From NCBI RefSeq assembly GCF_022968795.1, contig NZ_JALJRB010000002.1, forward strand, positions 62,001 through 126,000: 64,000 nt of DNA, given 5' to 3'. Made by a program: the position numbers and the translations under genes. The DNA comes from Desulfatitalea alkaliphila (lineage in GTDB: Bacteria > Desulfobacterota > Desulfobacteria > Desulfobacterales > Desulfosarcinaceae). The notes below the pieces were generated by a model, which saw nothing but the letters and a program-made list of their open reading frames with translations, was not told the origin of the DNA and searched no databases. Shown in pieces: positions 29,563-62,266 of this stretch. Each line of letters starts with the position of its first letter. Within the stretch, counting starts at the first letter, position 1.

Positions 29563-32500
29563 ATGCCCCGGGTCGTCCGCTACACCCTCAAACAGACCGT
29601 TCTGATCAATGTACTGTTCGTGATCCTGGTGGTGGCCGGGGTGTTCAGCCTGTTGACCACCCCCACGGAAAACATGCCCCTGGTGGATATGGGCCGGGTG
29701 TTCGTGCACACGGTCTACTACGGGGCCTCGGCCGAGGATGTGGAGCAGCTGGTCACGCGCAAGATCGAGGACGCCCTGGAGGACCTGGAGAGCGTCGAGT
29801 ACGTCCAGTCCCACTCCTACCGCAACTTCTCCTCGGTGCAAGTCAAGTTCCTCGACGACACCGATTACCGCTATCTGTACGACGAGCTGCGCTTTCTGGT
29901 GCTCAACATCAAGGACGAGCTGCCCCGGGGGGCCGAGGAGCCCACTTTCATCTGGCTGGACACCGACATCTGGAAGCCGGTGATCGAGGTGCACGTGGGC
30001 GGCGATCTGTCGTTGCGCGGGTTGGAACGCTATGCCGAGGAGCTGCGGGTGCAGCTGCTGGCCGTGCCCGATGTGCGGGACGTGGCGATCCGCGGGTCGG
30101 TGACCGAGGAGTTTCACCTGGCCCTGGACCCGGAGCGGCTGCGGCGCTTCGGGGTTACCTTCATGGAGGTGGTGCGGGCGGTGGAGAGCGCCGGCACCAA
30201 GATCCCCACGGGGCGCTTTCGCACCGGCGACACGGCCTTCATGCTGGACACCGGCCGCCGCCTGGAGCGCCGGCAGCAGGTGCTGGAGGTGGTGGTGCGC
30301 CGCGACGGCGACGGCAATTTCATCCGGGTGGGCGACCTGGCCGCCTCGGCCCGGCTGCATCACCGGGACCCCATCACCATCGCCTCGGTCAACGGCCACA
30401 GCGCCATCCGCATGGTGGTGACCAAGGAGCGGCAGGGCAACGCGGTGACCATCAGCGGGCAGGTCAAGACGGCGGCCCAGCGCTTCGGCGAGCGCCACGC
30501 CGACGAGGGGATCTCGGTGGTGTTCACCAACGACTCCACCATCGAGATCAACGACGCCCTGCGCACCCTGGGCGGCAACCTGCTGCTGGGCATGGCCCTG
30601 GTGATCCTGGTGCTGTGGCTCACCCTGGGGTTCCGCAACGCCATGATCACGGCCGTCGGCATCCCCTTCTCCTTTCTGTGCGCCCTGGCCATCATGAAGT
30701 TCACCGGGCTGACCATCAACACCATCAGCCTCTTCTCCTTCGTGCTGGTCACCGGCATCATCGTGGACGACGCCGTGATCATCGTGGAGAACACCTTCCG
30801 TCACATGCAGATGGGCAAGAACCGGCGGCAGGCCATCATCGACGGCACCGCGGAAGTGATGCTGCCGGTGATCAGCGCGGCCCTGACCACCTTGCTGGCC
30901 TTTCTGCCCATGCTGATCATGACCGGCCACATCGGCGATTTCTTCGCCATCATCCCCAAGACGGTGGCCTTCGCCCTGATCGCCTCCTTGCTCGAGGCCC
31001 TGTTCATCCTGCCCATCCACGTGTGGGACTGGGGCCCGCGGCAACCGTCGACGGCGCGGCAGATCAACGACAAGGCCACGCCCTTCGCCCATCTGCAAAG
31101 CGGCGTTTTCGGCCTGGTGTGGCGTGTCTACCGCCGGCTGCTGCTCTGGGTGTTGGACCACAAGCTGCCGGCCCTGCTGGGCATGAACCTGCTGCTGGCG
31201 GCGGCCGTGGCCATTCTGCTGCTCTCCATGCTGGGCATCGCGCCCCTGATCCAGGTCAAATTCTTCCCGGGCAACTACTTCCGCTACCATGTCACCTTGC
31301 AGACCGCCGCCGGCACCTCCCTGGAGCGCACCGACGAGATGGTGCGCGAGACCAGCCGCTTCATTCTCTCCCTGGGCCCCGGCCAGGCCGAGTCGGCGGC
31401 CGGCATGGCCGGTTATTACGAAGACCAGGATTACGTGCGCCACAACGGCCCCAATTACGGCCAGGTGGTGGTGACCCTGCCCGAGGTGCGGCAGCGCGAT
31501 TTTCCAGGCATCCCCGGCAACGACCCCATTCGTTACCTTCCCGAGGTGCGCCGCAAGATCGCAGACCACGTGGCCGCCACCTACGGCGACGATCCGGCCA
31601 ACCCCCGGGTGCAGGTGTTCGAGGAGGTGGACGGCCCGCCCACGGGCAAGGCGGTCAATGTGCGCATCCAGGGCCCCGCCATGGAAGAGGCCCTGGCCGC
31701 CGCCGACCACCTGCTGGCGCGCATGCGCGACGATGCGGCCCTGAGCGACCTGGTGGACCTGGGCGACGACCGCCCCTCGCAGCACCGCACGGTGCGCTTC
31801 GAACCGCGCCAGGAGGCGGTCTATGAATACAACCTATCGGTGGATCGGGTGACCGCCCTGGTGGCCGGGGTGCTCAACGGCTGGTACGCCGGGGTGTACC
31901 GCACCATCGACGAGGAGGTGGACATGGTGGTGCGCCTGGCGCGCCACGACGACCCGGTGGGCGGCGCCAACGGCCTGGCCACACCCCTGGACGCCCTGGC
32001 CGTGCCGGTGATCGACCACAGCGCGGCGCCCATCTACCTGCGCGACCTGGTCAACGCCCGCTACGCGCGCGAACCCAACGTGCGCTCCCGCTACCAGGGG
32101 CGCCCCACGGTGACGGTCAGCGCCGACATCCGCGCCGGCGCCAACCTCTCGGCGGCAGCGGCGCGCAACCGGATCCAGGCCCACTGGCAATCGGCCGCCG
32201 ACACCATGCCGGGCGTGGTGCTCACCTTCGGCGGCGAGTTCGAATCGACCCTCAAGTCCTACACCTCCCTGGCAACGGCCTTCGCCATCGCCATCCTGGG
32301 CATCTACATGGTGCTCTCCTCCCAGTTCCGGGACTACCTGCAACCGCTGATCATCCTGGCGGCGGTGCCCTTCTCCCTGATCGGCGTCTCCTTCGGCATC
32401 TTCTTCACCCGGGGCATCTTCACCATCGCCAGCTTCATCGCCACGGTCGGGCTGTCGGGCGTAGCGGTCAACAACACCATCCTGCTCCTCGATTTCATGA

Positions 32501-32802
32501 ACAAGCGCTACCGCGACGGCAAGGACCTGCGCCCGGCCATCCTGGAATCGTGCGCCGCCCGCATGCGGCCGGTCCTGATCACCACCGTGACCACCCTGCT
32601 GGGCCTCCTGCCCATGGCCATCGGCATTCCCTCCAAGTCCCTCACCTGGGCCCCCATGGCCACCGCCTTCGTCACCGGCCTGAGCAGCGCAACGGTGCTG
32701 GCGCTGTTGATCACGCCGGTGAATTATGAGTTGTTGGAGGGGTGGCGGGCGAAGTTGCGGCGGCGGCGGATCGGGAAGTTGAGAAGGAAGGGAGCGTTTT
32801 AA
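29563..32802 (+). CDS. RND-family efflux transporter (AcrB/MdtB-like)
   Basis: 1079 residues, the full length of the HAE-type RND family. The first transmembrane helix (residues about 11-32) is followed by a periplasmic porter domain (about 35-330), helices 2-6 with the proton-relay motif GIIVDDAVIIVEN, a second periplasmic domain (about 560-860) and a final helix block containing SSQFRDYLQPLIILAAVPFSL and GVAVNNTILLLDF. It should expel compounds by proton antiport. No membrane-fusion protein or TolC gene is adjacent, so it is either an orphan or pairs with partners elsewhere. Its last 75 bases are unusually C-poor and the stop codon lies inside a heptamer repeat. Confidence 0.93.
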   Translation: MPRVVRYTLKQTVLINVLFVILVVAGVFSLLTTPTENMPLVDMGRVFVHTVYYGASAEDVEQLVTRKIEDALEDLESVEYVQSHSYRNFSSVQVKFLDDTDYRYLYDELRFLVLNIKDELPRGAEEPTFIWLDTDIWKPVIEVHVGGDLSLRGLERYAEELRVQLLAVPDVRDVAIRGSVTEEFHLALDPERLRRFGVTFMEVVRAVESAGTKIPTGRFRTGDTAFMLDTGRRLERRQQVLEVVVRRDGDGNFIRVGDLAASARLHHRDPITIASVNGHSAIRMVVTKERQGNAVTISGQVKTAAQRFGERHADEGISVVFTNDSTIEINDALRTLGGNLLLGMALVILVLWLTLGFRNAMITAVGIPFSFLCALAIMKFTGLTINTISLFSFVLVTGIIVDDAVIIVENTFRHMQMGKNRRQAIIDGTAEVMLPVISAALTTLLAFLPMLIMTGHIGDFFAIIPKTVAFALIASLLEALFILPIHVWDWGPRQPSTARQINDKATPFAHLQSGVFGLVWRVYRRLLLWVLDHKLPALLGMNLLLAAAVAILLLSMLGIAPLIQVKFFPGNYFRYHVTLQTAAGTSLERTDEMVRETSRFILSLGPGQAESAAGMAGYYEDQDYVRHNGPNYGQVVVTLPEVRQRDFPGIPGNDPIRYLPEVRRKIADHVAATYGDDPANPRVQVFEEVDGPPTGKAVNVRIQGPAMEEALAAADHLLARMRDDAALSDLVDLGDDRPSQHRTVRFEPRQEAVYEYNLSVDRVTALVAGVLNGWYAGVYRTIDEEVDMVVRLARHDDPVGGANGLATPLDALAVPVIDHSAAPIYLRDLVNARYAREPNVRSRYQGRPTVTVSADIRAGANLSAAAARNRIQAHWQSAADTMPGVVLTFGGEFESTLKSYTSLATAFAIAILGIYMVLSSQFRDYLQPLIILAAVPFSLIGVSFGIFFTRGIFTIASFIATVGLSGVAVNNTILLLDFMNKRYRDGKDLRPAILESCAARMRPVLITTVTTLLGLLPMAIGIPSKSLTWAPMATAFVTGLSSATVLALLITPVNYELLEGWRAKLRRRRIGKLRRKGAF

Positions 32803-32843
32803 GTGTTAAGTGTTAAGTTTTAAGTTTTAAGTTTTAAGTTAAG
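32797..32843 (+). repeat. Heptamer repeat, copy A
   Basis: Six tandem units of TTAAGTG or TTAAGTT, then AAGG and a G-rich tail. The TAA stop of the RND gene is part of it. Together with inverted copy B at 33157 it bounds a 395-base segment; both are followed outward-in by similar sequence (AGTTAAGG then TTCTGTCGGTTAG in A, TTCCGTCGATTTTAG in B). Flanks on the repeat-bearing strand are C-poor: by hand count 39 G and 8 C in 32721-32796, 27 G and 4 C in 32851-32900. Confidence 0.85.
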
Positions 32844-33213
32844 GAATTCTGTCGGTTAGATAGGGTGAGGGGTGCGGATGGGGGAGGCGATTTGGTCTGG
32901 ATTCGACGGCTGTCCGCACTGTTCAACCGTTGGGTGGTTGGAATGGGGTTGAACAGTGGCCCAAGTCTGAATATCATACACTATTGGAGGTCCTGAATCG
33001 GAACGCGCCGAAGGAGCGAAATGGCACCGCCCGTTCGTGCGTAATAGCCGCAAGGACCGGCGAATGGAATAAACAAGGGTGCCGCACCACAGCGACACAG
33101 TTCGGCAACCCAACAACAACCCCACACAACCACCAAACCTAAAATCGACGGAACACCTTAACTTAACACTTAAAACTTAACACTTAAAACTATCTTTTCT
33201 CCAAGGAGCCCCC
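32803..33213. other. Intergenic segment bounded by inverted repeats
   Basis: About 410 bases with no supportable gene. Repeat copies A and B stand at its ends in opposite orientation, giving it the outline of a small non-autonomous element, though no target-site duplication is evident. The centre (about 32900-33100) has normal base composition and includes the near-inverted pair ACTGTTCAACC / GGTTGAACAGT (32918 and 32948 regions), which can form a hairpin. Promoter signals for ridA would have to lie near 33100-33190. Confidence 0.5.
33157..33191 (-). repeat. Heptamer repeat, copy B (inverted)
   Basis: On the minus strand four units TTAAGTK followed by AAGG. It ends 22 bases before the ridA start. 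The strand asymmetry is mirrored: by hand count 33191-33290 on the plus strand holds 46 C and only 8 G, so the minus strand, which carries the TTAAGTK units, is C-poor as in the other copies. Confidence 0.85.
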
Positions 33214-33657
33214 ATGCCCACCACCAACACCCCAAATTCCGATACCACCACCCCAAATTCCGATACCACCACCCCAATCGCCACAGACAACGCCCCCCGC
33301 GCCATCGGGCCTTACGCCCAGGGACGGATCGGCGGCGGACTGGTTTACGTCAGCGGCCAACTGGGCTTCGATCCGGCCAGCGGCGATTTCGTCGGCGGCG
33401 ACTTCGCCAGCCAGGCGCGCCAGGCCCTGGAAAATATGAAAGCCGTGCTGGATGCGGCCGGCTGCCGGCTCAGCGACGTGATCGCCGTGGATGTTTTCCT
33501 GATCGACATGGGCAACTTCGTGGAGTTCAACCGCATCTACCAGGCTTTTTTCGGCGAACACAAGCCGGCCCGGGCCGTGGTGGCGGTCCACGCCCTGCCC
33601 AAGAACGGCCGCGTGGAGGTCAAGTGCGTGGCAGTGCAACCGTCCGGGGCCAAATGA
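33214..33657 (+). CDS. ridA: RidA/YjgF-family imine deaminase
   Basis: 147 residues with an AAGGAG ribosome site. From about residue 25 it is a full RidA domain: AIGPYAQGRIGGGLVYVSGQ at the start, and PARAVVAVHALPKNGRVEVK near the end, which keeps the Arg and Glu corresponding to Arg105 and Glu120 of E. coli RidA. It should hydrolyse reactive enamine/imine intermediates from PLP enzymes. The first 24 residues are atypical: two copies of TPNSDTT encoded by a 21-base tandem repeat next to heptamer repeat B; an added low-complexity tail rather than part of the enzyme. Neighbouring enzymes do not identify a specific substrate. Confidence 0.9.
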   Translation: MPTTNTPNSDTTTPNSDTTTPIATDNAPRAIGPYAQGRIGGGLVYVSGQLGFDPASGDFVGGDFASQARQALENMKAVLDAAGCRLSDVIAVDVFLIDMGNFVEFNRIYQAFFGEHKPARAVVAVHALPKNGRVEVKCVAVQPSGAK

Positions 33658-33665
33658 AAGCAACG

Positions 33666-33739
33666 AGGGGACGCCCTTTATATTTTTATATTTCTGCCCG
33701 AAAAGCGGCAGAAATATAAAAATATAAAGAACGTCCCCT
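33666..33739. repeat. Large REP-like palindrome, probable bidirectional terminator
   Basis: A hairpin with an outer 8-base stem (AGGGGACG / CGTCCCCT), a 2x2 internal loop, a 23-base-pair inner stem (left arm 33676-33698, right arm 33707-33729) and an 8-base loop, followed by TTTTT. It lies between the convergent genes ridA and the ThDP enzyme. The terminal GGGGACG motif recurs in the palindrome at 39861, so both belong to one dispersed family, likely REP elements mobilised by a Y1-type transposase elsewhere (inference). Confidence 0.8.
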
Positions 33740-33758
33740 TTTTACTACTCTTGACCCC

Positions 33759-35513
33759 TTACATGGAAATGGACCCTTCCCGGAAATCGGTGGGGCCCAG
33801 CCACACATTGATCAGCACCGGCATGCCTTTGCGGGCGAATTCGCGGGCTTGCGCCAGGGCGGGGTCGATTTCTTCCCGGGTGCGCACCAGCAGGCCCTTG
33901 GCACCGAAGCCTCGGGCCACGATGTGGTAGTCGCTGCGGCGCAGGGTGGTGGCCACATCGTCTTCTAGAAGTTTCACCTGGTCCCGGGCGATTTGGGCCC
34001 AGGCGGCGTCGTTGCCCACAACGGCGATGATGGGCAGGCCGTGGCGCACGAAGGTGTCCATCTCCTGCAGGCTGTAACCGGCGGCGCCGTCACCGTAGAG
34101 CAGCCAGACTTCTTCGCCGGGGCGCACCAGTTGGGCGCCCGCGGCAAAGCCGGCCCCCACGCCGAGGGTGCCGAAGGGGCCGGGGTCGAGCCAGCGCAAC
34201 GGGCCCCGCGGGCGCAGCACATAGGCGGCGGTGGCCACGAAATCGCCGCCGTCGGCCACCAGGGTGGCGCGCTCATCCAGAAAGTTTTCCAGCCGGTTGA
34301 AAAAGGCGATGGGGTTGACCCCTTGGGCCGCGGGGCGGTCGGCCAAGGCGGCGATCTCATCTTCCCGCTCCTGGTCGGCGCGGCGCAAGGTCGCCGTCCA
34401 TTCGGACCAGGGGGCCGCAATGTCTTCCAGCGGCCGCTCTTCGGACAAGACGCATAGAAAGTCGCCGGGGTCGGCGTGCAGCGCCAGGGTCGGCCGGCGA
34501 TTGAGGGTCAGGGCCGCCTTGTCCCGGTTGGCGGCGATCAGGGTGGCGGCGGATGGAATGGCGCGACCGTAATTCAGGCGGAAGTCGCAGGGCATTCCGG
34601 CCAGCAGCACCAGGTCGGCGGCCGCCAGGGCCTTTTTTCGGTGGTGGCGCATCTGCAAGGGATGATCGACGCCCAACAGGCCCCGGGCCATGCCGGTCAG
34701 ATAGACCGGCGCGCCGATGCGCGTGACCGCGTCGGCCAGGCGGCGGGTGCTTTCGGGTTGCAGCAGGGCCTGGCTGCCCACGATCAGCACGGGACGGCGG
34801 GCGGCGCCCAACAGGCGGGCCGCCTTGTCCACCTTGGCGGCCGGCAGCTCGGGGGCTTCGACCGGTTCGAGCAGCGGGGGCATGTCGTCGAAATCGCATA
34901 CGAACATGCGGTCCAGATGGCGTTGCAGGTAGAATTGAAACAGCTTGCTCTTGAGCCCCTTGGTCTCGGCCGCGCCGTCGCGGGCACCGCCGTACCAGCG
35001 GCGCACCTCCGTTTCGGCGTAAAGCAGGTCGATGGGACACTCCACAAAGACCGGTCCCGGCACATCGGAACGGGCCACGCGGAAAGCGTGGGCCAGCACC
35101 GGCACGATGTCGCAGTTGCGGTTGATGGTGAGGGCCACCTTGACGATGGATTTGACCAGGCCGATCTGGTCGATGTCCTGCAGCGAGCCGCGTCCCTTGA
35201 TGATGGTGGCCGCCGCCCCGCCCAGCAGCACAAGGGGGCTTTGGGCCATCTGGGCGTTCTTGAGGGCCGTCAGGGCGTTGGTCACCCCCGGCCCGGCGGT
35301 CACCGCCGCCACCCCGGGTCGGCCGGTCAGCCGCGCCAGCGCATCGGCCGCAAAGACTGCGCCGGCTTCGCCGCGCATGTCGATCACCCGGATGCCGCGG
35401 GCCTTGGCGCCCACCAGGATGGGGGAGATGTGCCCGCCGCAGAGGGTGAACAGATGGCGCACGCCGTGGCTTTGCAATACGTCCGCGATGATGTGCCCGC
35501 CGTGGGTTTCCAT
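33759..35513 (-). CDS. Thiamine diphosphate enzyme, acetolactate synthase/2-hydroxyacyl-CoA lyase-like
   Basis: 584 residues from the ATG at 35513, which has a GGGAGG ribosome site; the longer frame to 35687 has none. Layout is that of the ThDP superfamily: N-terminal pyrimidine-binding domain with the catalytic Glu in DMRGEAGAVFAADALARLTG, a central domain (about 200-335) and the C-terminal diphosphate-binding domain with LLYGDGAAGYSLQEMDTFVRHGLPIIAVVGND. It resembles the ILVBL/2-hydroxyacyl-CoA lyase branch and lacks a companion IlvN subunit. Divergent from the dehydratase-like operon at 35701, it may cleave or form 2-hydroxyacyl-CoA compounds; that link is inference. Confidence 0.82.
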   Translation of the reverse strand: METHGGHIIADVLQSHGVRHLFTLCGGHISPILVGAKARGIRVIDMRGEAGAVFAADALARLTGRPGVAAVTAGPGVTNALTALKNAQMAQSPLVLLGGAAATIIKGRGSLQDIDQIGLVKSIVKVALTINRNCDIVPVLAHAFRVARSDVPGPVFVECPIDLLYAETEVRRWYGGARDGAAETKGLKSKLFQFYLQRHLDRMFVCDFDDMPPLLEPVEAPELPAAKVDKAARLLGAARRPVLIVGSQALLQPESTRRLADAVTRIGAPVYLTGMARGLLGVDHPLQMRHHRKKALAAADLVLLAGMPCDFRLNYGRAIPSAATLIAANRDKAALTLNRRPTLALHADPGDFLCVLSEERPLEDIAAPWSEWTATLRRADQEREDEIAALADRPAAQGVNPIAFFNRLENFLDERATLVADGGDFVATAAYVLRPRGPLRWLDPGPFGTLGVGAGFAAGAQLVRPGEEVWLLYGDGAAGYSLQEMDTFVRHGLPIIAVVGNDAAWAQIARDQVKLLEDDVATTLRRSDYHIVARGFGAKGLLVRTREEIDPALAQAREFARKGMPVLINVWLGPTDFREGSISM

Positions 35514-35700
35514 GATGCCTCCCGCAGATGGATCAAATGGCTTAAGATGGAAGGTTACCGGGCGATTGTCAATGGCCCGTCCCAATCGGCCTTTGCCCAT
35601 GTATTTGGTGGTTTGCCCCCAAACCGATTCATGGTATGTAGCAAAAACGTGACGTTGATTCAGTTTTTGGGTGCAACCCATTCCCAATCAAGGAGTCTCC

Positions 35701-36819
35701 ATGCCCCTCAGCGAACCGCTGCACCAGGCCGGGGAACATCCCCGCGATTACGCACGTCTTTGGAAAGAACGTTCCGGCGGCAAGGTGGTCGGTTATTTTT
35801 GTTCCTACACGCCCCAGGAATTGATCTCCGCGGCCCGCGCCTTGCCCTTTCGCATTTGGAGCAGCGGCGCCGACATCAGCCGCGCCGACAGCCACCTGCA
35901 GGCCTACAGTTGCAGCCTGGTGCGCGGCGCCTTGGAGGATGCCCTGGCCGGCCGGCTCGATTTTCTGGACGGCGCCGCCTTTCCCCACACCTGCGATTCC
36001 ATCATGCGGCTGTCGGACATCTGGCGTATGAACACCCATTTCGGGTTCCACGCCGACCTGGTGATGCCGGTCAAGTTGAACACCGACAGCGCCGCCGAAT
36101 ACATGACCGCCGTACTGCACCGCTTTCGGAGCGATCTGGAAAAGGGGCTGGGCGTCAACATCACGGATCAGCGCCTCCACGAGGCCATCCAAGACTGGAA
36201 CCGGGTGCGGCGGCTGTTGGGCAGCCTCTACGCCCGCCGCGCCGGCGATCCCTCGTCCCTGGGCGCCGCCGAACTGCACCAGGTGTTCCGGGCGGCCATG
36301 GTGATGGAGCCGCGGGCATCGGCGCGGGCACTGGAAGCCTTGATCCACAGCCTGCCCGCCGCCAAGCCGGATCGACGCCCGGCAGGGGTGCCCATTATCC
36401 TCAGCGGCGGCTTGTGCGGCATGCCCGACATCCACCAGGTGGTGGAAGCGGCCGGCGGCCGGGTGGTGTGGGACGACTTCTGCACCGGCGCCCGCTATTT
36501 CGAAGGCCTGGTGGACGAATCGGAAGAACCCGTTGCCGCCCTTGCCCGGCGACTGCTGACCCGCGTGGTCTGCCCGGCCAAGCACACCGGCATCCACAGC
36601 CGCGGCCACTACCTGCTGGACAAGGTGCGCCAACAAGGGGCCAGGGGGGTCGTCTTTCTCTACCTCAAATTCTGCGATCCCCACGCCTTCGACCACCCCT
36701 ACTTGAAAGCGATGCTGGATGAGGAGGGCATTCCCAGCATGCTGATCGAAGTGGAGGACGCAACCGGGGCGGAGGGGCAGTTGCGGACGCGGTTGGAAGC
36801 ATTCATGGAGATGGTTTGA
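35701..36819 (+). CDS. 2-hydroxyacyl-CoA dehydratase/benzoyl-CoA reductase-like subunit (first)
   Basis: 372 residues from the ATG at 35701 with an AAGGAG ribosome site. It is of the HgdB/BcrB/BcrC fold: VVGYFCSYTPQELISAA at the start, DFLDGAAFPHTCDSIMRLSDIW (a Cys that ligates the [4Fe-4S] cluster), SGGLCGMPDIHQVVEAAGGRVVWDDFC and FLYLKFCDPHAFDHPYLKAMLDEEGIPSMLIEVE. Such subunits form heterodimers that take one electron from an ATP-driven activator and carry out reductive dehydration or ring reduction. The partner subunit and activator follow on the same strand. Confidence 0.88.
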   Translation: MPLSEPLHQAGEHPRDYARLWKERSGGKVVGYFCSYTPQELISAARALPFRIWSSGADISRADSHLQAYSCSLVRGALEDALAGRLDFLDGAAFPHTCDSIMRLSDIWRMNTHFGFHADLVMPVKLNTDSAAEYMTAVLHRFRSDLEKGLGVNITDQRLHEAIQDWNRVRRLLGSLYARRAGDPSSLGAAELHQVFRAAMVMEPRASARALEALIHSLPAAKPDRRPAGVPIILSGGLCGMPDIHQVVEAAGGRVVWDDFCTGARYFEGLVDESEEPVAALARRLLTRVVCPAKHTGIHSRGHYLLDKVRQQGARGVVFLYLKFCDPHAFDHPYLKAMLDEEGIPSMLIEVEDATGAEGQLRTRLEAFMEMV

Positions 36820-36832
36820 CCGGCTGCGCCGG

Positions 36833-36870
36833 TAGTTTTAAGTGTTAAGTGTTAAGTTTTAAGTTGAAGG
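36833..36870 (+). repeat. Heptamer repeat, copy C
   Basis: Four units TTAAGTK then GAAGG, located between the two reductase-type subunit genes. The following 90 bases (36871-36960), which include the start of the next gene, contain 46 G and 5 C by hand count. Confidence 0.85.
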
Positions 36871-36929
36871 ATTGGGGTCGTTTGGATGGGGTGGGTGAAT
36901 AGCGTTTTGTGGTGGGAAGGAGATGGGTG

Positions 36930-38168
36930 ATGGGTGAGGATGGGCGGGTTTTGGATCCGGATAGGGAGAAGCGGAAGATCAAGGCCGATAAGCGGATGCG
37001 GGAGATCATGGCCGAATACTACATCGAGGCCAAGACCCCGCGCGAGCAGCGCGGCAAGCCAATTGCCTGGATCACCAGCGGCGGTCCCGTGGAGCCGCTG
37101 CACGTGATGGATGTGATTCCCGTCTACCCGGAGAACTACGGCGCCATGATCGGGGCTTCGAAGATGGGAGTGGGCTTGTGCGAAACGGCCGAAGAGATGG
37201 GCTACAGCCGCGATCTGTGCTCCTACGCGCGAGCGGACATCGCCAGCGCCACGGTCAACGGCGGGCCCATCGGCGGACTGCCCGAGCCGGACATGCTGAT
37301 CTGCTGCAACAACATCTGCGGCACGGTGCTCAAGTGGTACGAAGTCCAGGCCCGCTATTTCAACGTACCGCTGTTCATCTTCGACACTCCCATCACCCAC
37401 ACCCGTTTCGACGACGACATGCGCCGCTATGTCAAGCGCCAGAGCAAGGAGTACATCGCCTTCCTGGAGCGGGTGTGCGGCAAACCCTTCGACCAGGACC
37501 GCATGAAGGTGGTGGGCGAACTCTCCCTGGAGGGACAGGCCCTGTGGCAGGAGATCCTGGAGACCACCATGCACAAGCCGGCCCCCATGACCTGCTTCGA
37601 CGCCTTTTTTCATCTGGCCATGATCGTCACCCTGCGCGGCACTCAAACCGCGGTGGATTACTACAAAATGCTGCTGGCCGAAATGCGCGAACGGGTGGCG
37701 CAAGGTATCGGCATGCTGGCCGAGGAGAAGTACCGCCTGGTGTGGGACAACATCCCCATCTGGTACCGCATGCGCTGGCTTTCGGAGAAGTTCATGGCCC
37801 GCTCGGCCTGCCTGGTGGCCGACACCTACACCTCCGGCTGGACCGGATGGCTGCCCGGGGCCGACCGCAATGACTTCCTGGGCTTCATGGGCGAGAGCTA
37901 CGCGCGCATCTTCCTCAACAGCGGCACCGACCTGATGGCCGAAAACATCCTGCGCATGGTGGAGAAGTACCATGCCGACGGCGTGGTGTTTCACTCCAAC
38001 CGCAGCTGCAAGCCCTATTCATTAGGGCAGTACGACATCCAGCGCATCGTGCAGGAGAAGATGGGTATCCCCACTTTGATGATCGAGGCCGATATGGTGG
38101 ATGAGCGCAGTTTTGCCGAGAGTCAGATAGATACACGGATCGATGCGTTTATTGAGATGTTGGGATAA
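36930..38168 (+). CDS. 2-hydroxyacyl-CoA dehydratase/benzoyl-CoA reductase-like subunit (second)
   Basis: 412 residues from the ATG at 36930, preceded by AAGGAG; a GTG at 36909 is in frame but has no ribosome site. It belongs to the same fold as the preceding subunit: IAWITSGGPVEPLHVMDVIPVYPENYGA, PDMLICCNNICGTVLKWYE, and a C-terminal DGVVFHSNRSCKPYSLGQYDIQ with cluster-ligating Cys. The first 25 residues lie in a G-rich, C-poor stretch linked to repeat C and are probably not conserved. With the first subunit and the ATPase it makes up a complete two-component system; the substrate is not evident. Confidence 0.88.
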   Translation: MGEDGRVLDPDREKRKIKADKRMREIMAEYYIEAKTPREQRGKPIAWITSGGPVEPLHVMDVIPVYPENYGAMIGASKMGVGLCETAEEMGYSRDLCSYARADIASATVNGGPIGGLPEPDMLICCNNICGTVLKWYEVQARYFNVPLFIFDTPITHTRFDDDMRRYVKRQSKEYIAFLERVCGKPFDQDRMKVVGELSLEGQALWQEILETTMHKPAPMTCFDAFFHLAMIVTLRGTQTAVDYYKMLLAEMRERVAQGIGMLAEEKYRLVWDNIPIWYRMRWLSEKFMARSACLVADTYTSGWTGWLPGADRNDFLGFMGESYARIFLNSGTDLMAENILRMVEKYHADGVVFHSNRSCKPYSLGQYDIQRIVQEKMGIPTLMIEADMVDERSFAESQIDTRIDAFIEMLG

Positions 38169-38174
38169 GAAGAA

Positions 38175-38211
38175 AAGTTTTAAGTTTTAAGTGTTAAGTT
38201 TTAAGTTGAGG
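38175..38211 (+). repeat. Heptamer repeat, copy D
   Basis: Four units TTAAGTK then GAGG, just after the second subunit stop and 40 bases before the activator start. By hand count 38211-38320 contains 55 G and only 6 C; normal composition returns near 38320. Confidence 0.85.
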
Positions 38212-38250
38212 TATTCTGGCGGTTATATTGGGTGGAGAGGTGATGGGGTT

Positions 38251-39021
38251 ATGGTGAGTGTTGGGGTGGATGTGGGGTCGATTAGTGCCAAGGCGGTGGT
38301 GATGGGGGTAGGTGGGGTTTTGGCCGCCGATGTGATGTTGACCGGTTATAACAGCCGTGGCGCCGGGCGGCAGGTGTATGAGCGGGTGCTGGCGGCCACG
38401 GATCTGCGGCCGGAGCAGGTGGACCGGATCGTTGCCACCGGGTACGGTCGCAACAGCATCGACTTCGCCCACAAGGCGGTCACCGAGATCACTTGTCACG
38501 CCGCCGGCGCTTACTACTTGGATGCGGCCGTACGCACCATCATCGACATCGGGGGCCAGGACAGCAAGGTGATCGCCCTGGACGCCAAAGGCAAGGTGCG
38601 GGATTTTGCCATGAACGACAAGTGCGCCGCCGGCACTGGCCGTTTCCTGGAAGTGATGGCCCGCGCCCTGGAGTTGGACCTGGACGCCTTCGGCGACCTT
38701 TCCCTGGCGGCCGAGCGCGCCGCGCCCATCAGCAGCATGTGTACCGTCTTCGCCGAATCGGAAGTGATCTCCCTGATCGCCAAGGGCGAAGAGCGGGCCA
38801 ACATCATCGCCGGCATCCACGCCGCCATCGCCGCCCGGGTGGCGGCCATGGCCAAACGGGTCGGCCTGCGCCCGACGGTGATGATGACCGGCGGCGTGGC
38901 CCGCAACGCGGGCGTGGTCAAGGCGCTGGCAGCCAAGCTGGAAATCCCGCTGGTCGTCTCGGAACAGGCCCAGGTCACCGGTGCCCTGGGCGCGGCCATC
39001 CTCGCCGCCGGCCTTGGATAG
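38251..39021 (+). CDS. ATPase activator of 2-hydroxyacyl-CoA dehydratase/benzoyl-CoA reductase (BadF/HgdC type)
   Basis: 256 residues from the ATG at 38251 with a GGAGAGG ribosome site. It is an ASKHA-fold ATPase: VGVDVGSISAKAVVM (phosphate 1), IDIGGQDSKVIAL, the cluster-binding region AMNDKCAAGTGRFLE and ISSMCTVFAESEVISL whose two Cys hold the [4Fe-4S] cluster between two subunits, and MMTGGVARNAGVV. The size fits a homodimeric HgdC-type activator rather than the larger BcrA/BcrD pair. It uses ATP hydrolysis to push a low-potential electron into the dehydratase/reductase encoded just upstream. Its first 25 codons lie in the C-depleted zone after repeat D. Confidence 0.92.
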   Translation: MVSVGVDVGSISAKAVVMGVGGVLAADVMLTGYNSRGAGRQVYERVLAATDLRPEQVDRIVATGYGRNSIDFAHKAVTEITCHAAGAYYLDAAVRTIIDIGGQDSKVIALDAKGKVRDFAMNDKCAAGTGRFLEVMARALELDLDAFGDLSLAAERAAPISSMCTVFAESEVISLIAKGEERANIIAGIHAAIAARVAAMAKRVGLRPTVMMTGGVARNAGVVKALAAKLEIPLVVSEQAQVTGALGAAILAAGLG

Positions 39022-39030
39022 GGCGGCGTC

Positions 39031-39876
39031 ATGGCCTTCTGCAAAACCAGCGACGGGTGTTCCATCTACTACGAAGTACTCGGAGAAGGTCCCGGCAAGC
39101 CTACCCTCACCCTGATCAACGGCACCCTGCAAACCACCATCAACTGGAAGCCGGCCGTCAAGGCGTTGACCCGGCAGTTCCGCCTGCTGCTCTACGACAC
39201 CCGGGGCCAGGGGGCCAGCGACCTGGGACAGCAACCCCTCTCCCTGGAGCTGCACGCCCGTGACCTGGAAGAACTGCTGCTGGAGACCGGCATCCGCCAA
39301 ACGGCCGTGGCGGGCCTCAGCCACGGCGCGCGGGTGGCCCTGGCCCTGGCCCAACGATCACCCGACCCCATCACCCGGCTGGTGCTGTGCAGCCTCTCCA
39401 CCCGCGCCACTTTCCGCGCCCGCATGATCGTGCGCTCCTGGCACGAAATCCTGCAGCGCCACAGCCTGGACGCCATGGTGTGGGCCGCCGTGCCCCACGT
39501 CTTCGGCCGCGCCTTCCTGCGGCAGAACGAAAAGCAGTTGGAGCGCATCGTCCAGACCATCGTGCGCCGCAACCAGAGCGATGCCCTGCGCGCCCACCTG
39601 GCGGCCCTGCAGCACTACCCGCCGCTGTCCGGCACCCTGAAACCCCTGCCCTTTCTTTCACTGGTGCTCACCGGCGAAGACGACCCCCTGGTCACCCGCG
39701 AGGGTGCCGAAGAGATTGCCCGCATCATTGGCGGTCGCCACGTGGAGCTTCCCAATGTCGGCCACTCCCTTGCCGCCGAAGCCCCGGAAATCTTCGTGGA
39801 CATTGTGAACGGCTTCTTGGAATTCGGAATTCGGGGACGTCGGAATTCGGGGACGGGAATTCGGGGACGTACATGA
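39031..39876 (+). CDS. Alpha/beta hydrolase
   Basis: 281 residues. Catalytic triad is recognisable: nucleophile elbow GLSHG (Ser near residue 95), acid in LTGEDDPLV, and His in NVGHSLA; the oxyanion region is LINGTLQTT. Close to the 3-oxoadipate enol-lactonase/proline iminopeptidase type; might act as a thioesterase or lactonase with the CoA enzymes upstream (inference). The authentic domain ends near GFLEFG; the last 19 residues are encoded by the direct repeats and left arm of the palindrome at 39829-39930, so the native stop has been replaced by an insertion. Confidence 0.85.
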   Translation: MAFCKTSDGCSIYYEVLGEGPGKPTLTLINGTLQTTINWKPAVKALTRQFRLLLYDTRGQGASDLGQQPLSLELHARDLEELLLETGIRQTAVAGLSHGARVALALAQRSPDPITRLVLCSLSTRATFRARMIVRSWHEILQRHSLDAMVWAAVPHVFGRAFLRQNEKQLERIVQTIVRRNQSDALRAHLAALQHYPPLSGTLKPLPFLSLVLTGEDDPLVTREGAEEIARIIGGRHVELPNVGHSLAAEAPEIFVDIVNGFLEFGIRGRRNSGTGIRGRT

Positions 39877-39986: not shown

Positions 39987-41012
39987 CTACACCCACCGCA
40001 CCGCATCGGGCGAATAGGCGAGGCGGGCTTTGTTGCCGGGGGTGAAGTGGCCGGTGGCGGCCATTTCAGGGGGTAGATAGGCGGTGAAGGGGGTGGCGCC
40101 GACGGTCAGGGAGACGCTGATCTGGCCGCTGGTTTTTCCAAGGGCCAGGGCGGTGATGGTGCCTTCCACGACGGCCGTGCCCGGTGGGAGCGGATCGGTG
40201 AGGGCGTGGAGGGTGAGGTGGCGGGCATCGAGGGCGGCGATGTCGCTTTCGGCCGCACCGGCGGGCGGCGGATCGAGGGTGAGCCACTGGTCCCGGCCCA
40301 ATGGCGCGGCCAGGCGCCGGTTCTCCCCGGGTTGCCAGGGGCCGAACACCAGGGTGAAGTCGCCCCGGCCCAGGATTCTACCCTGGAACAGGTGCACGGT
40401 TTCGTCGCAGGTGTCCTGCAGCCAATGGTGGTCGTGGCTGGTGACGATCAGGCAGGTGCCCCACTGCCTATGGGCGTGCAGGGCGGCTGCCTGGATCATC
40501 TGGGCGCTGGCGCTGTCCACGCTGGCGGTGGGTTCGTCCAGCAGCAGCACGCGGGGGCGCAGGACAAGGCGCGCCGCCAGGGCCACCCGCCGGGCTTCGC
40601 CGCCCGACAGGGCGAACCAGGGCCGTTGGGCGAAGGCATCGGGGTCCAGCCCCACCAGGCCCAGGCTCTCCCCCACCCGCTGCCGGATGTCGCAGCGCAC
40701 CCGGCCGATACGCAACCCGTAGGCCACGTTTTTATAAACCGTGCGCCGCAGCATGTACGAGGCCTGGGGCAGCAGCACCACCCGGCCGCGCACGGCATCG
40801 GCATAGGGTTCGGCCGGGCGCCCCTGGTAGTGAATGGTGCCGCGCACGGGCCGTTCCACGAACCCCAGCAGCCGCAGCAGAGTGCTTTTGCCGCTGCCGT
40901 TGGGACCGCACAAGCCCACGATCTTGCCTTCCGGCACCTGCCACGCATCGATGGTCAGCACGGTGCGGCCGGCGTAGGCCTGAAGGATCCGGTGCAACTC
41001 GAACAGCGGCAT
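39987..41012 (-). CDS. tupC: Tungstate ABC transporter ATPase TupC
   Basis: 341 residues. ATPase motifs: Walker A GPNGSGKST, signature LSGGEARR, Walker B VLLLDEPTAS and H-loop VTSHDHHWL. A C-terminal extension (about 265-340, from GTAVVEGTITALALGKTSGQ) resembles a TOBE/Mop oxyanion-binding domain, which may let cytoplasmic tungstate or molybdate inhibit uptake. It follows tupB by six bases. Assignment to tungstate rather than molybdate depends on the TupA-type binding protein in the same operon. Confidence 0.9.
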   Translation of the reverse strand: MPLFELHRILQAYAGRTVLTIDAWQVPEGKIVGLCGPNGSGKSTLLRLLGFVERPVRGTIHYQGRPAEPYADAVRGRVVLLPQASYMLRRTVYKNVAYGLRIGRVRCDIRQRVGESLGLVGLDPDAFAQRPWFALSGGEARRVALAARLVLRPRVLLLDEPTASVDSASAQMIQAAALHAHRQWGTCLIVTSHDHHWLQDTCDETVHLFQGRILGRGDFTLVFGPWQPGENRRLAAPLGRDQWLTLDPPPAGAAESDIAALDARHLTLHALTDPLPPGTAVVEGTITALALGKTSGQISVSLTVGATPFTAYLPPEMAATGHFTPGNKARLAYSPDAVRWV

Positions 41013-61123: not shown

Positions 61124-62266
61124 ATGGACGGCGTGAGCGCCATCATCCTGGCCGCCGGCGAATCCCGGCGCATGGGCCGTTTCAAACCGTTGCTGCACCT
61201 GGGCGCAACCACGGTGGTGGAGCGGGTGGTGCAACTGTATGCCGCCGCGGGTCTGAAGGACATCATCGTGGTCACCGGCTGCAACAGCGATGCCCTGTGC
61301 ACCGCCCTGACCCATCTGCCGCTGCGTTGCATCCACAATGGGCAGTGGCGGGCCGGCATGTACACCTCCCTCCAGGCCGGCCTTGGGGCCCTGCCGGTGG
61401 ACGCGCGCGCCTTTTTCGTCCATCCGGTGGACATCCCCCTGGTGCGGCCGTCGACGGTCGGCGCCCTGGCCCGCAGCTTCCATGATCAACGCGGCGCGGT
61501 TTGCCACCCTTGCTACGACGGCCGGCGGGGCCACCCGGTCTTGATCCCGGCCGCCCTGGGGGCCGATTTGCTGGCATGGCCGGGAGAAGGGGGCTTGCGC
61601 GCCTTCTGGCAATCGTGGACCGGGCCGTGGCGGGAAGTGGCCGTGGCGGACGAAGGCATCCTGCTCGATCTGGACACCCCGGCGGACCTTCGCATGCTGA
61701 CGCAACGCCTGGAACGGGATGACCGACCCTCCGCCGATGCCTGCCGCGTGCTCATGACCCGCGTTGAACAGGTGCCGCCGGCTGTGTGGCGCCACTGCCG
61801 GGCGGTGGCCGCGGTGGCCGGCGCCATCGCCGATGCCCTGCAGGCCGCCGGGGTGGATCTGGATGCCGACCTGGTGCGCTCCGCCGCCCTGGTGCACGAT
61901 ATCGCCCGCCAAGCACCCCATCACGCCGCTGCCGGCGCCCGACTGCTGGCGGACCTGGGCTATCCCCGGCCGGCCGCCATGGTGGCCGTGCACATGGATC
62001 CGCCCGTGGCGGATGCCGCGACGCCGGACGAAGCGGCGGTACTTTTTCTGGCGGACAAATTGGTGGTGGGCGACCGTCCCGCCGACCTGCACACCCGCTT
62101 CGAACGCAAGATGGCCAAATACGGCAACGATCCCCGGATCGCGAAGGCCATCGCATCGCGCCGGCAGGCCGCCGAGGCCCTTCTGGCCACCGTGGAACGG
62201 TGCATCGGCCGCCCGGTGGCCGCCTTGACGGCCGACCTGCCGTTAAAAGGCGAACAGCCCGGATGA
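61124..62266 (+). CDS. MocA-like nucleotidyltransferase fused to an HD domain
   Basis: 380 residues from the ATG at 61124 with a GGGGAGGAG site. Residues 1-205 are a MobA/MocA-type transferase: IILAAGESRRMGRFKPLLHLG, FVHPVDIPLVRPSTV, HPCYDGRRGHPVLIP; this type adds CMP to molybdopterin to make the cytosine dinucleotide needed by Mop. Residues about 215-370 form an HD-like phosphohydrolase: HCRAVAAVAGAIADAL, SAALVHDIARQAPHH, VAVHMD and LADKLVVGDRP. The fused HD part may remove nucleotides or pyrophosphate by-products. Overlaps the next gene by four bases. Confidence 0.9.
   Translation: MDGVSAIILAAGESRRMGRFKPLLHLGATTVVERVVQLYAAAGLKDIIVVTGCNSDALCTALTHLPLRCIHNGQWRAGMYTSLQAGLGALPVDARAFFVHPVDIPLVRPSTVGALARSFHDQRGAVCHPCYDGRRGHPVLIPAALGADLLAWPGEGGLRAFWQSWTGPWREVAVADEGILLDLDTPADLRMLTQRLERDDRPSADACRVLMTRVEQVPPAVWRHCRAVAAVAGAIADALQAAGVDLDADLVRSAALVHDIARQAPHHAAAGARLLADLGYPRPAAMVAVHMDPPVADAATPDEAAVLFLADKLVVGDRPADLHTRFERKMAKYGNDPRIAKAIASRRQAAEALLATVERCIGRPVAALTADLPLKGEQPG

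Follow-up and report, generated by a model that had tools for sequence, protein, structure and literature searches.

Short intergenic arrays of the heptamer TTAAGTK in the genome of Desulfatitalea alkaliphila (G000; 5.07 Mb, 98 contigs, 99.68% complete) are accompanied by a marked deficit of cytosine on one DNA strand. The window analysed here, a stretch of 64,000 nucleotides (C12:62001-126000, i.e., positions 62,001 to 126,000 of contig NZ_JALJRB010000002.1), harbours four such arrays, termed A to D. They form the outer end of a dispersed, non-coding module, and, as judged from sequence comparisons, the strand carrying the array (5'-outside-array-tail-3') has lost most of its freely changeable C over approximately 85 bp outside and 120-150 bp inside. 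In this lineage substitutions have replaced the C by T and by G at similar frequency and less often by A, also within adjoining genes, whose reading frames remain intact and whose codons otherwise align with those of relatives. Among the explanations considered, strand-directional local mutagenesis anchored on the module, a form of repeat-induced recurrent repair, is our tentative preference, at somewhat less than an even chance.

The original prediction described four TTAAGTK arrays flanked by G-rich DNA that is nearly free of C on the array strand. The coordinates, strands and exact units of all four were recovered: array A (32799..32840, plus strand) comprises six exact units, and array B (33160..33187, minus strand), which is inverted relative to A and forms an inward-facing pair with it, as well as arrays C (36838..36865) and D (38180..38207), both on the plus strand, comprise four each. 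A two-unit pattern allowing at most one mismatch matches 14 times in the window, compared with a mean of 0.00 over 100 shuffles. Arrays A to D mark the four most skewed places of the window and the only ones where |G-C| reaches at least 38 per 100 bases, and the sign of each is as the array orientation predicts. Averaged over the eight 80-bp flanks, the oriented skew amounts to 0.61, a value reached in none of 20,000 random placements.

The flanks reach into the ends of several genes. Upstream of array A, which includes the stop codon of an AcrB-family gene, the outer flank (32717..32796, plus strand) lies within the 3' end of that gene; downstream, a conserved tail that belongs to the module consensus (AAGGAATTCTGTCGGTTAGAT..., 32841..32862, plus strand) opens an inner flank (32841..32920) with an oriented skew of 0.48. 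For A the counts had been given without coordinates; the G excess stood, and the figures were replaced by our recount of 41 G/9 C before the array and 32 G/8 C after it (32841-32910). The counts given with coordinates were reproduced. The outer flank of B (33191..33290) is C-depleted on the minus strand (46 C and 8 G on the plus strand) and covers the start of an L-PSP-family gene, while on the inner side the minus strand carries the conserved tail (33138..33159) within a flank (33080..33159) of oriented skew 0.53. Array C is located between two HGD-D-family genes; its outer flank at the end of the first (36758..36837, plus strand) shows the weakest oriented skew of the eight (0.33), and its tail and C-depleted inner flank (36866..36978, plus strand) extend into the start of the second, with 46 G/5 C at 36871-36960. 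Array D is situated between the second HGD-D-family gene, whose 3' end forms the outer flank (38097..38176, plus strand; oriented skew 0.49), and a BcrAD_BadFG-family gene, the start of which is reached by the tail and inner flank (38208..38340, plus strand; 55 G/6 C at 38211-38320).

Beyond the window, a triple-unit pattern (TTAAGTKTTAAGTKTTAAGTK) yields 241 overlapping matches in the genome (117 forward, 124 reverse), while the reversed control yields 0; ten other genomes of the same genus (G001-G010) contain 0-6 matches. A sample of 1,229,500 bases (about a quarter of the genome) was studied further, consisting of contigs C1 and C12, nearly whole, plus other stretches that were picked for their arrays; of the 241 matches, 122 fall within it, and arrays with two or more exact units number 82. 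Genes were called with our own script and no annotation was used. The arrays constitute the outer end of a module with the layout AGATAGTT-(TTAAGTK)4-AAGGAATTCTRTCGATTA, followed by a G-rich stretch, and a profile built from the 66 arrays with at least three units retrieved 101 module copies in the 1.23 Mb (consensus TGAAGGATAGTTTTAAGTTTTAAGTGTTAAGTTTTAAGTTAAGGAATTCTGTCGATTAGATGTG). In no case does the midpoint of a copy lie deeper than 20 bp within a called gene, and the module is thus a dispersed, non-coding, multi-copy element. Neighbouring copies less than 1.5 kb apart (n=32) are predominantly inward-facing (20), the others being tandem (7 + 3) or outward-facing (2); the inward-facing pairs are spaced by 83-403 bp in 19 cases and by 1,278 bp in one, and 63 of the 101 modules lie outside any close inward pair. 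As RNA, the A-B pair folds far better than shuffled sequences (z -7.9), and the outer flanks of paired modules showed no complementarity to each other. At gene 3' ends 37 of 40 arrays share the strand of the gene, and at 5' ends it is on the opposite strand in 17 of 27; hence, the outer end of the module usually faces the gene. Within one pair (C4:50869-51258), palindromic GC-rich stretches (ggggcacggcacgccgtgcccc), a further dispersed repeat, separate the two arrays.

The tail alone (at most one mismatch) matches 162 times in G000, 52 times in G002, 47 in G007, 38 in G009, 36 in G006 and 2-18 times in the other six genomes, with 0-8 matches of the reversed control per genome. Since the tail is present in relatives, the module is older than this species, in which the intact arrays expanded. 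At one locus (C1:158222) the genes abut in the sister genome G004, and G000 carries a 204-bp insert with an inward module pair, leaving an empty site in the relative. The spacer at C1:154117 measures 332 bp in G000, against approximately 27 bp in G001, 59 bp in G009 and 197 bp in G002, the last with its own pair of a related array, and spacers at other loci vary in length between species as well (10 loci shown). By its sequence the module looks mobile, like a miniature inverted-repeat element. The strict module pattern has 0 matches in viral contigs. At two loci of G002 (L374 and L377), closely spaced module pairs form a near-continuous inverted repeat of array and tail.

The expectation that arrays elsewhere in the genome share the asymmetry held for most of them. 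On the TTAAGTK strand, G exceeds C in the outer 80 bp of 72 and the inner 80 bp of 74 of 81 arrays (one of the 82 lacks flanks); it did not hold throughout, since 18 of the 82 arrays are without any extreme patch, defined as 80 bp with at most 6 C and at least 24 G on one strand. In the first 80 bp the C fraction of this strand is 0.10-0.21 upstream and 0.08-0.23 downstream of the array, and approximately 0.3 farther out (76 arrays with 600-bp flanks). Contigs C1 and C12 contain 41 extreme patches, 26 of which lie within 150 bp of an array or module on the same strand, although 1.6% of the bases are so close; one patch is near an opposite-strand module or array only, and 14 are without any. 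The skew is independent of the module score (Spearman 0.02 outer, 0.06 inner).

Several of the 14 module-free patches hold a nine-base tandem repeat with units such as TTTGTTGGG. Nine of these nine-base arrays that are not close to an exact TTAAGTK array have C-poor flanks too, chiefly downstream; two of the nine come from one locus and one adjoins a degenerate heptamer array. The heptamer is therefore not the sole repeat involved. This repeat (TTTGTTGGG/TTTATTGAG), one strand of which is free of C, with C-poor DNA alongside, occurs in G000 at C1:8781, C1:239629-239680, C12:9938, C12:48516, C12:225942, C12:281044 and other sites. In the window, a fifth, weaker G-over-C patch (|G-C| of at least 31 per 80 bases) is found at 40017-40096, where no TTAAGTK array was found.

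In coding sequence the asymmetry tracks the array strand and not the gene strand, as originally proposed. For same-strand genes upstream of the array, the array-strand C at third codon positions is 0.05, 0.17 and 0.26 in successive 30-bp steps and 0.46-0.53 thereafter; for opposite-strand genes the corresponding values are 0.07, 0.09 and 0.23, then 0.30-0.47. Amino-acid use shifts less near arrays than third positions do. The claim that gene-level codon bias is not at work likewise holds, as third-position C at gene ends without a module stays at 0.35-0.45. Only 3 of 682 module-free genes have at most four C in their last 30 third positions, versus 11 of 37 genes whose 3' end adjoins an array on the same strand, and a general gene-end bias was rejected. 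At fourfold sites of same-strand genes, C amounts to 0.19 within 84 bp and to 0.55 beyond 100 bp; near modules G rises most (0.35 to 0.57), followed by T (0.04 to 0.14) and A (0.06 to 0.10).

Outside the array, third-position C is 0-0.24 within 84 bp and approximately 0.4-0.5 beyond, and the pooled value rises abruptly, from 0.17 to 0.40, at a distance of 84 bp from where the array starts. Changed C run outward from the array and mostly end at 60-125 bp (36 well-supported loci; median 91.5, range 41-230 bp), and on the inner side the loss extends about 120-150 bp. At C4:50886, reference C are changed at 35, 38, 44, 62 and 89 bp and kept at 10 of 10 sites from 92 to 155 bp.

Comparison with relatives places the loss in this lineage and agrees with the directional process originally suggested. 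At the loci compared, orthologues in up to six genomes of the same genus are without the asymmetry; at the C and D junctions it is absent in every relative examined, namely six for both junctions and a seventh for C alone. For substitution counts, orthologues of 105 genes were used. With gene ends lacking modules as the control, synonymous third-position changes near modules include 46 C losses versus G004 (15.6 expected). Versus G002, 75 C losses (28.2 expected), 10 C gains (35.8) and 55 other changes (37.3) were counted, both pairwise counts being unpolarised. Sites at which the relatives are unanimous, from 20 genes near modules, yield 22 C losses (4.8 expected), 1 C gain (5.9) and 11 other changes (6.3). 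Versus G004, 82 of 120 third-position C near modules are changed, compared with 104 of 402 for the control gene ends and 1,182 of 5,434 for gene interiors; for positions 1 and 2 the figures are 37/159, 87/588 and 550/6,541, respectively.

These orthologues bear directly on the idea that the module inserts preferentially into C-poor strands and that the inside skew is the element's own sequence. Although G-rich sequence immediately inside the tail is common to several copies, the corresponding coding flanks of relatives have retained their C at the compared loci, so the targets were not C-poor before insertion, and the excess of C loss is seen in aligned codons. Insertion into C-poor targets is thus contradicted at these loci, and we regard this explanation as very improbable.

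The kinds of substitution speak to the mechanisms first proposed. Third-position C of the unanimous set changed to T 11 times, to G 12 times and to A twice, and, sorted by the current 5' neighbour, the lost C amount to 10/25 after A, 11/37 after C, 17/79 after G and 10/37 after T, with a low value before a 3' C (4/35). Deamination alone is unsupported, because C-to-G changes are about as frequent as C-to-T changes and there is no clear 5' neighbour preference. Nor are R-loops from transcription of the adjacent gene supported, since the effect is seen in genes of either orientation. If an R-loop arising from transcription exposed one strand to cytosine deamination, this would fit the G-rich, C-poor strand, the one-sided loss of C and C-to-T as one of the main products. 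We nevertheless consider it improbable: C-to-G is about as common as C-to-T, G gains most at fourfold sites, dinucleotide context is lacking, and in opposite-oriented genes it is the template strand that would have to be exposed. Reverse transcriptase-templated addition is also unsupported, because RVT_1 (PF00078) has 0 matches in G000 (7 of the 11 genus genomes have matches) and the orthologue alignments show substitutions in aligned codons.

The heptamer recurs in other genomes with little of the asymmetry. Eleven heptamer arrays of G035, a genome from a related family of the same order (13 stretches fetched), show no skew past 25 bp, and the heptamer alone is thus ruled out as sufficient. 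Hence, the claim of a skew tied to the arrays stood at orthologous loci, where relatives lack it, and did not stand for the heptamer as such. In 84 arrays from other public genomes (those without 700-bp flanks were dropped) the outer skew is 0.40, 0.23, 0.09 and 0.07 in the first four 20-bp bins and about 0 thereafter, the near-array part being due in part to degenerate repeat units. Modules of G002 (n=14) have a weak outer skew (0.29, 0.22, 0.10 and 0.20 over the range 20-100 bp), and on their inner side it is absent past about 34 bp; those of G009, with degenerate arrays (n=7, a number too small to weigh), have no outer skew and values of +0.35, +0.20 and +0.15 inside at 25-100 bp.

The substitution counts are also pertinent to the main rival, namely selection against C on the array strand, or against G in RNA from the other strand. 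For instance, a C-rich, G-poor RNA of 80-90 nt leaving the spacer might serve as a Rho utilisation site that stops antisense transcription into the genes. Such a site comprises about 78 nt of unstructured RNA with C in excess of G according to the accessible text of PMC6407284, and size and composition of the complement strand fit it. The 37 of 40 arrays at gene 3' ends that lie on the gene's strand would render RNA running from spacer to gene antisense; furthermore, C gain is suppressed as well, and fourfold base use near modules resembles the background minus C. However, where 17 of 27 arrays at 5' ends are on the opposite strand the same loss is seen, and a Rho site would fall into the gene's own mRNA; array-strand G-to-A and G-to-T changes are unreduced near modules; and module-bearing relatives show little or none of the skew, even though Rho is a general factor. 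We consider selection possible though clearly less likely than recurrent repair; mutation and selection against C are not separated by the present counts.

Alternatively, a one-time burst, i.e., insertion of the element with error-prone gap or break repair, might have set the strand-coordinated flank tract once. The tract ends are fairly sharp and locus-specific, and at least one insert (C1:158222) is younger than the split from G004. On the other hand, the loss is incomplete in the majority of tracts, and the outer skew still averages 0.30 at 14 modules that have no exact array, as if the state were kept or accumulating. Moreover, the insertion between the HGD-D-family genes looks old, because a degenerate array and tail occupy the site of array C in G002 and G007 as well (more weakly in others). 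A burst therefore appears rather unlikely to us.

In the favoured reading, recurrent repair, the module would mark a site of recurrent exposure or resynthesis of one strand, be it through nicking, fork stalling, breakage or attempted transposition. Error-prone repair would remove C from the exposed strand, and C would drift to T, G and A over time. With a single inferred step, such recurrent exposure or resynthesis would account for the choice of strand, the indifference to gene strand, the limited reach, the change of C to all three other bases and the restriction to one lineage.

Several observations weigh against this reading. Fourteen of the 41 extreme patches on C1 and C12 have no module, and the C loss lacks a clear 5' neighbour context. 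A ramp to approximately 122 bp fits the outward profile better than an 84-bp step (log-likelihood -2064.1 versus -2071.1), and a fixed 84-bp ruler was thus dropped in spite of the pooled jump. C gain is lowered too (7 versus G004, 27.6 expected), which is what selection against C predicts. Substitutions among the other three bases are somewhat raised (41 versus G004, 27.7 expected), which a purely C-directed process does not predict; part of them may be double changes at former C sites. Compared with G004, the rise is smaller at positions 1 and 2 (0.233 versus 0.148) than at position 3 (0.683 versus 0.259), and in the small unanimous set positions 1 and 2 show no rise (2/40 versus 7/175). Finally, no enzyme was identified, no deaminase search and no systematic transposase search having been made. 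In a narrower form of mutational explanation, a module-targeted, C-removing mutator composed of host or element machinery (without RVT_1) might recognise the array or tail and re-edit or resynthesise one strand over about 200 bp, such that the adjoining gene ends drift under directed mutation; we give this a modest chance, slightly below that of selection.

Among known systems, the 3R hypothesis (PMC3114760, accessible text) comes closest: substitutions cluster beside repeats, many are transversions, and repeated recruitment of error-prone polymerases has been proposed. Substitutions are raised beside the present repeats too (versus G004, C loss 46/15.6 and non-C changes 41/27.7 observed/expected), yet the text consulted mentions neither a strand direction nor the loss of a single base, and here the effect is specific for C, strand and lineage. 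Intergenic direct repeats of another heptamer, TAACTGA, occur in Beggiatoaceae, Cyanobacteria and Bacteroidetes (PMC4679880). They likewise form many short arrays, but in the text consulted neither a conserved tail nor a C-depleted flank is mentioned, and the word "skew" is absent from it. In Geobacter metallireducens, paired sites of 3-5 tandem 7-8-mers were read as regulator binding sites (PMC2700814, in the portion at hand); these are also dispersed and paired on opposite strands at variable distance, while the motifs differ and that portion mentions no effect on composition. Miniature inverted-repeat transposable elements (MITEs) include one with a minisatellite in Porphyromonas gingivalis (PMC4596501). 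The module shares with MITEs a non-coding, dispersed nature and internal tandem repeats, and its close inward pairs may correspond to inverted terminal parts, whereas the flanking C loss here extends beyond the element. APOBEC-type clusters combine strand-coordinated C-to-T and C-to-G changes as here but favour TCA/TCT (PMC10715669), and T is not preferred 5' of the C lost here. A literature search that fell short of most subscription papers found, in the text it reached, no description of C being lost from one strand next to tandem repeats. Repeat-linked local change is thus known, and the strand-specific loss of one base beside repeats is the unexplained part.

If mutation is responsible, the modules would represent a natural, oriented and local mutagenic process, replicated at about 100 sites within the quarter of the genome that was sampled, each with an internal control strand and unaffected orthologues, which would render the cause of repeat-linked mutation testable. 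If selection is responsible, DNA or RNA beside intergenic elements would be under an unusually strong, gene-strand-independent demand on composition. In either case, codon choice, ancestral reconstruction and gene-start calls are biased near such elements.

The window genes concerned are all encoded on the plus strand. The AcrB/AcrD/AcrF-family gene (ACR_tran, 29563..32802) is affected at its 3' end, the endoribonuclease L-PSP-family gene (33214..33657) at its 5' end, on the opposite strand, the second HGD-D-family gene (36909..38168) at both ends and the BcrAD_BadFG-family gene (38251..39021) at its 5' end; the first HGD-D-family gene spans 35701..36819, its listed open reading frame starting at 35671. 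A search of 32700-38500 against Rfam gave nothing above the gathering score. The first codons of the L-PSP-family gene contain a 21-base tandem repeat (2.6 copies, 33223-33277) within the C-rich flank of B. Between this gene and the next lies a strong inverted repeat (ggggacg...tttatatttttatatttctgcc, 33668-33737), which has below-threshold Rfam matches to microRNAs and resembles a terminator or else a further dispersed element. A 16-base tandem repeat (TCGGAATTCGGGGACG, 3.1 copies) is located behind an open reading frame at 39824-39870.

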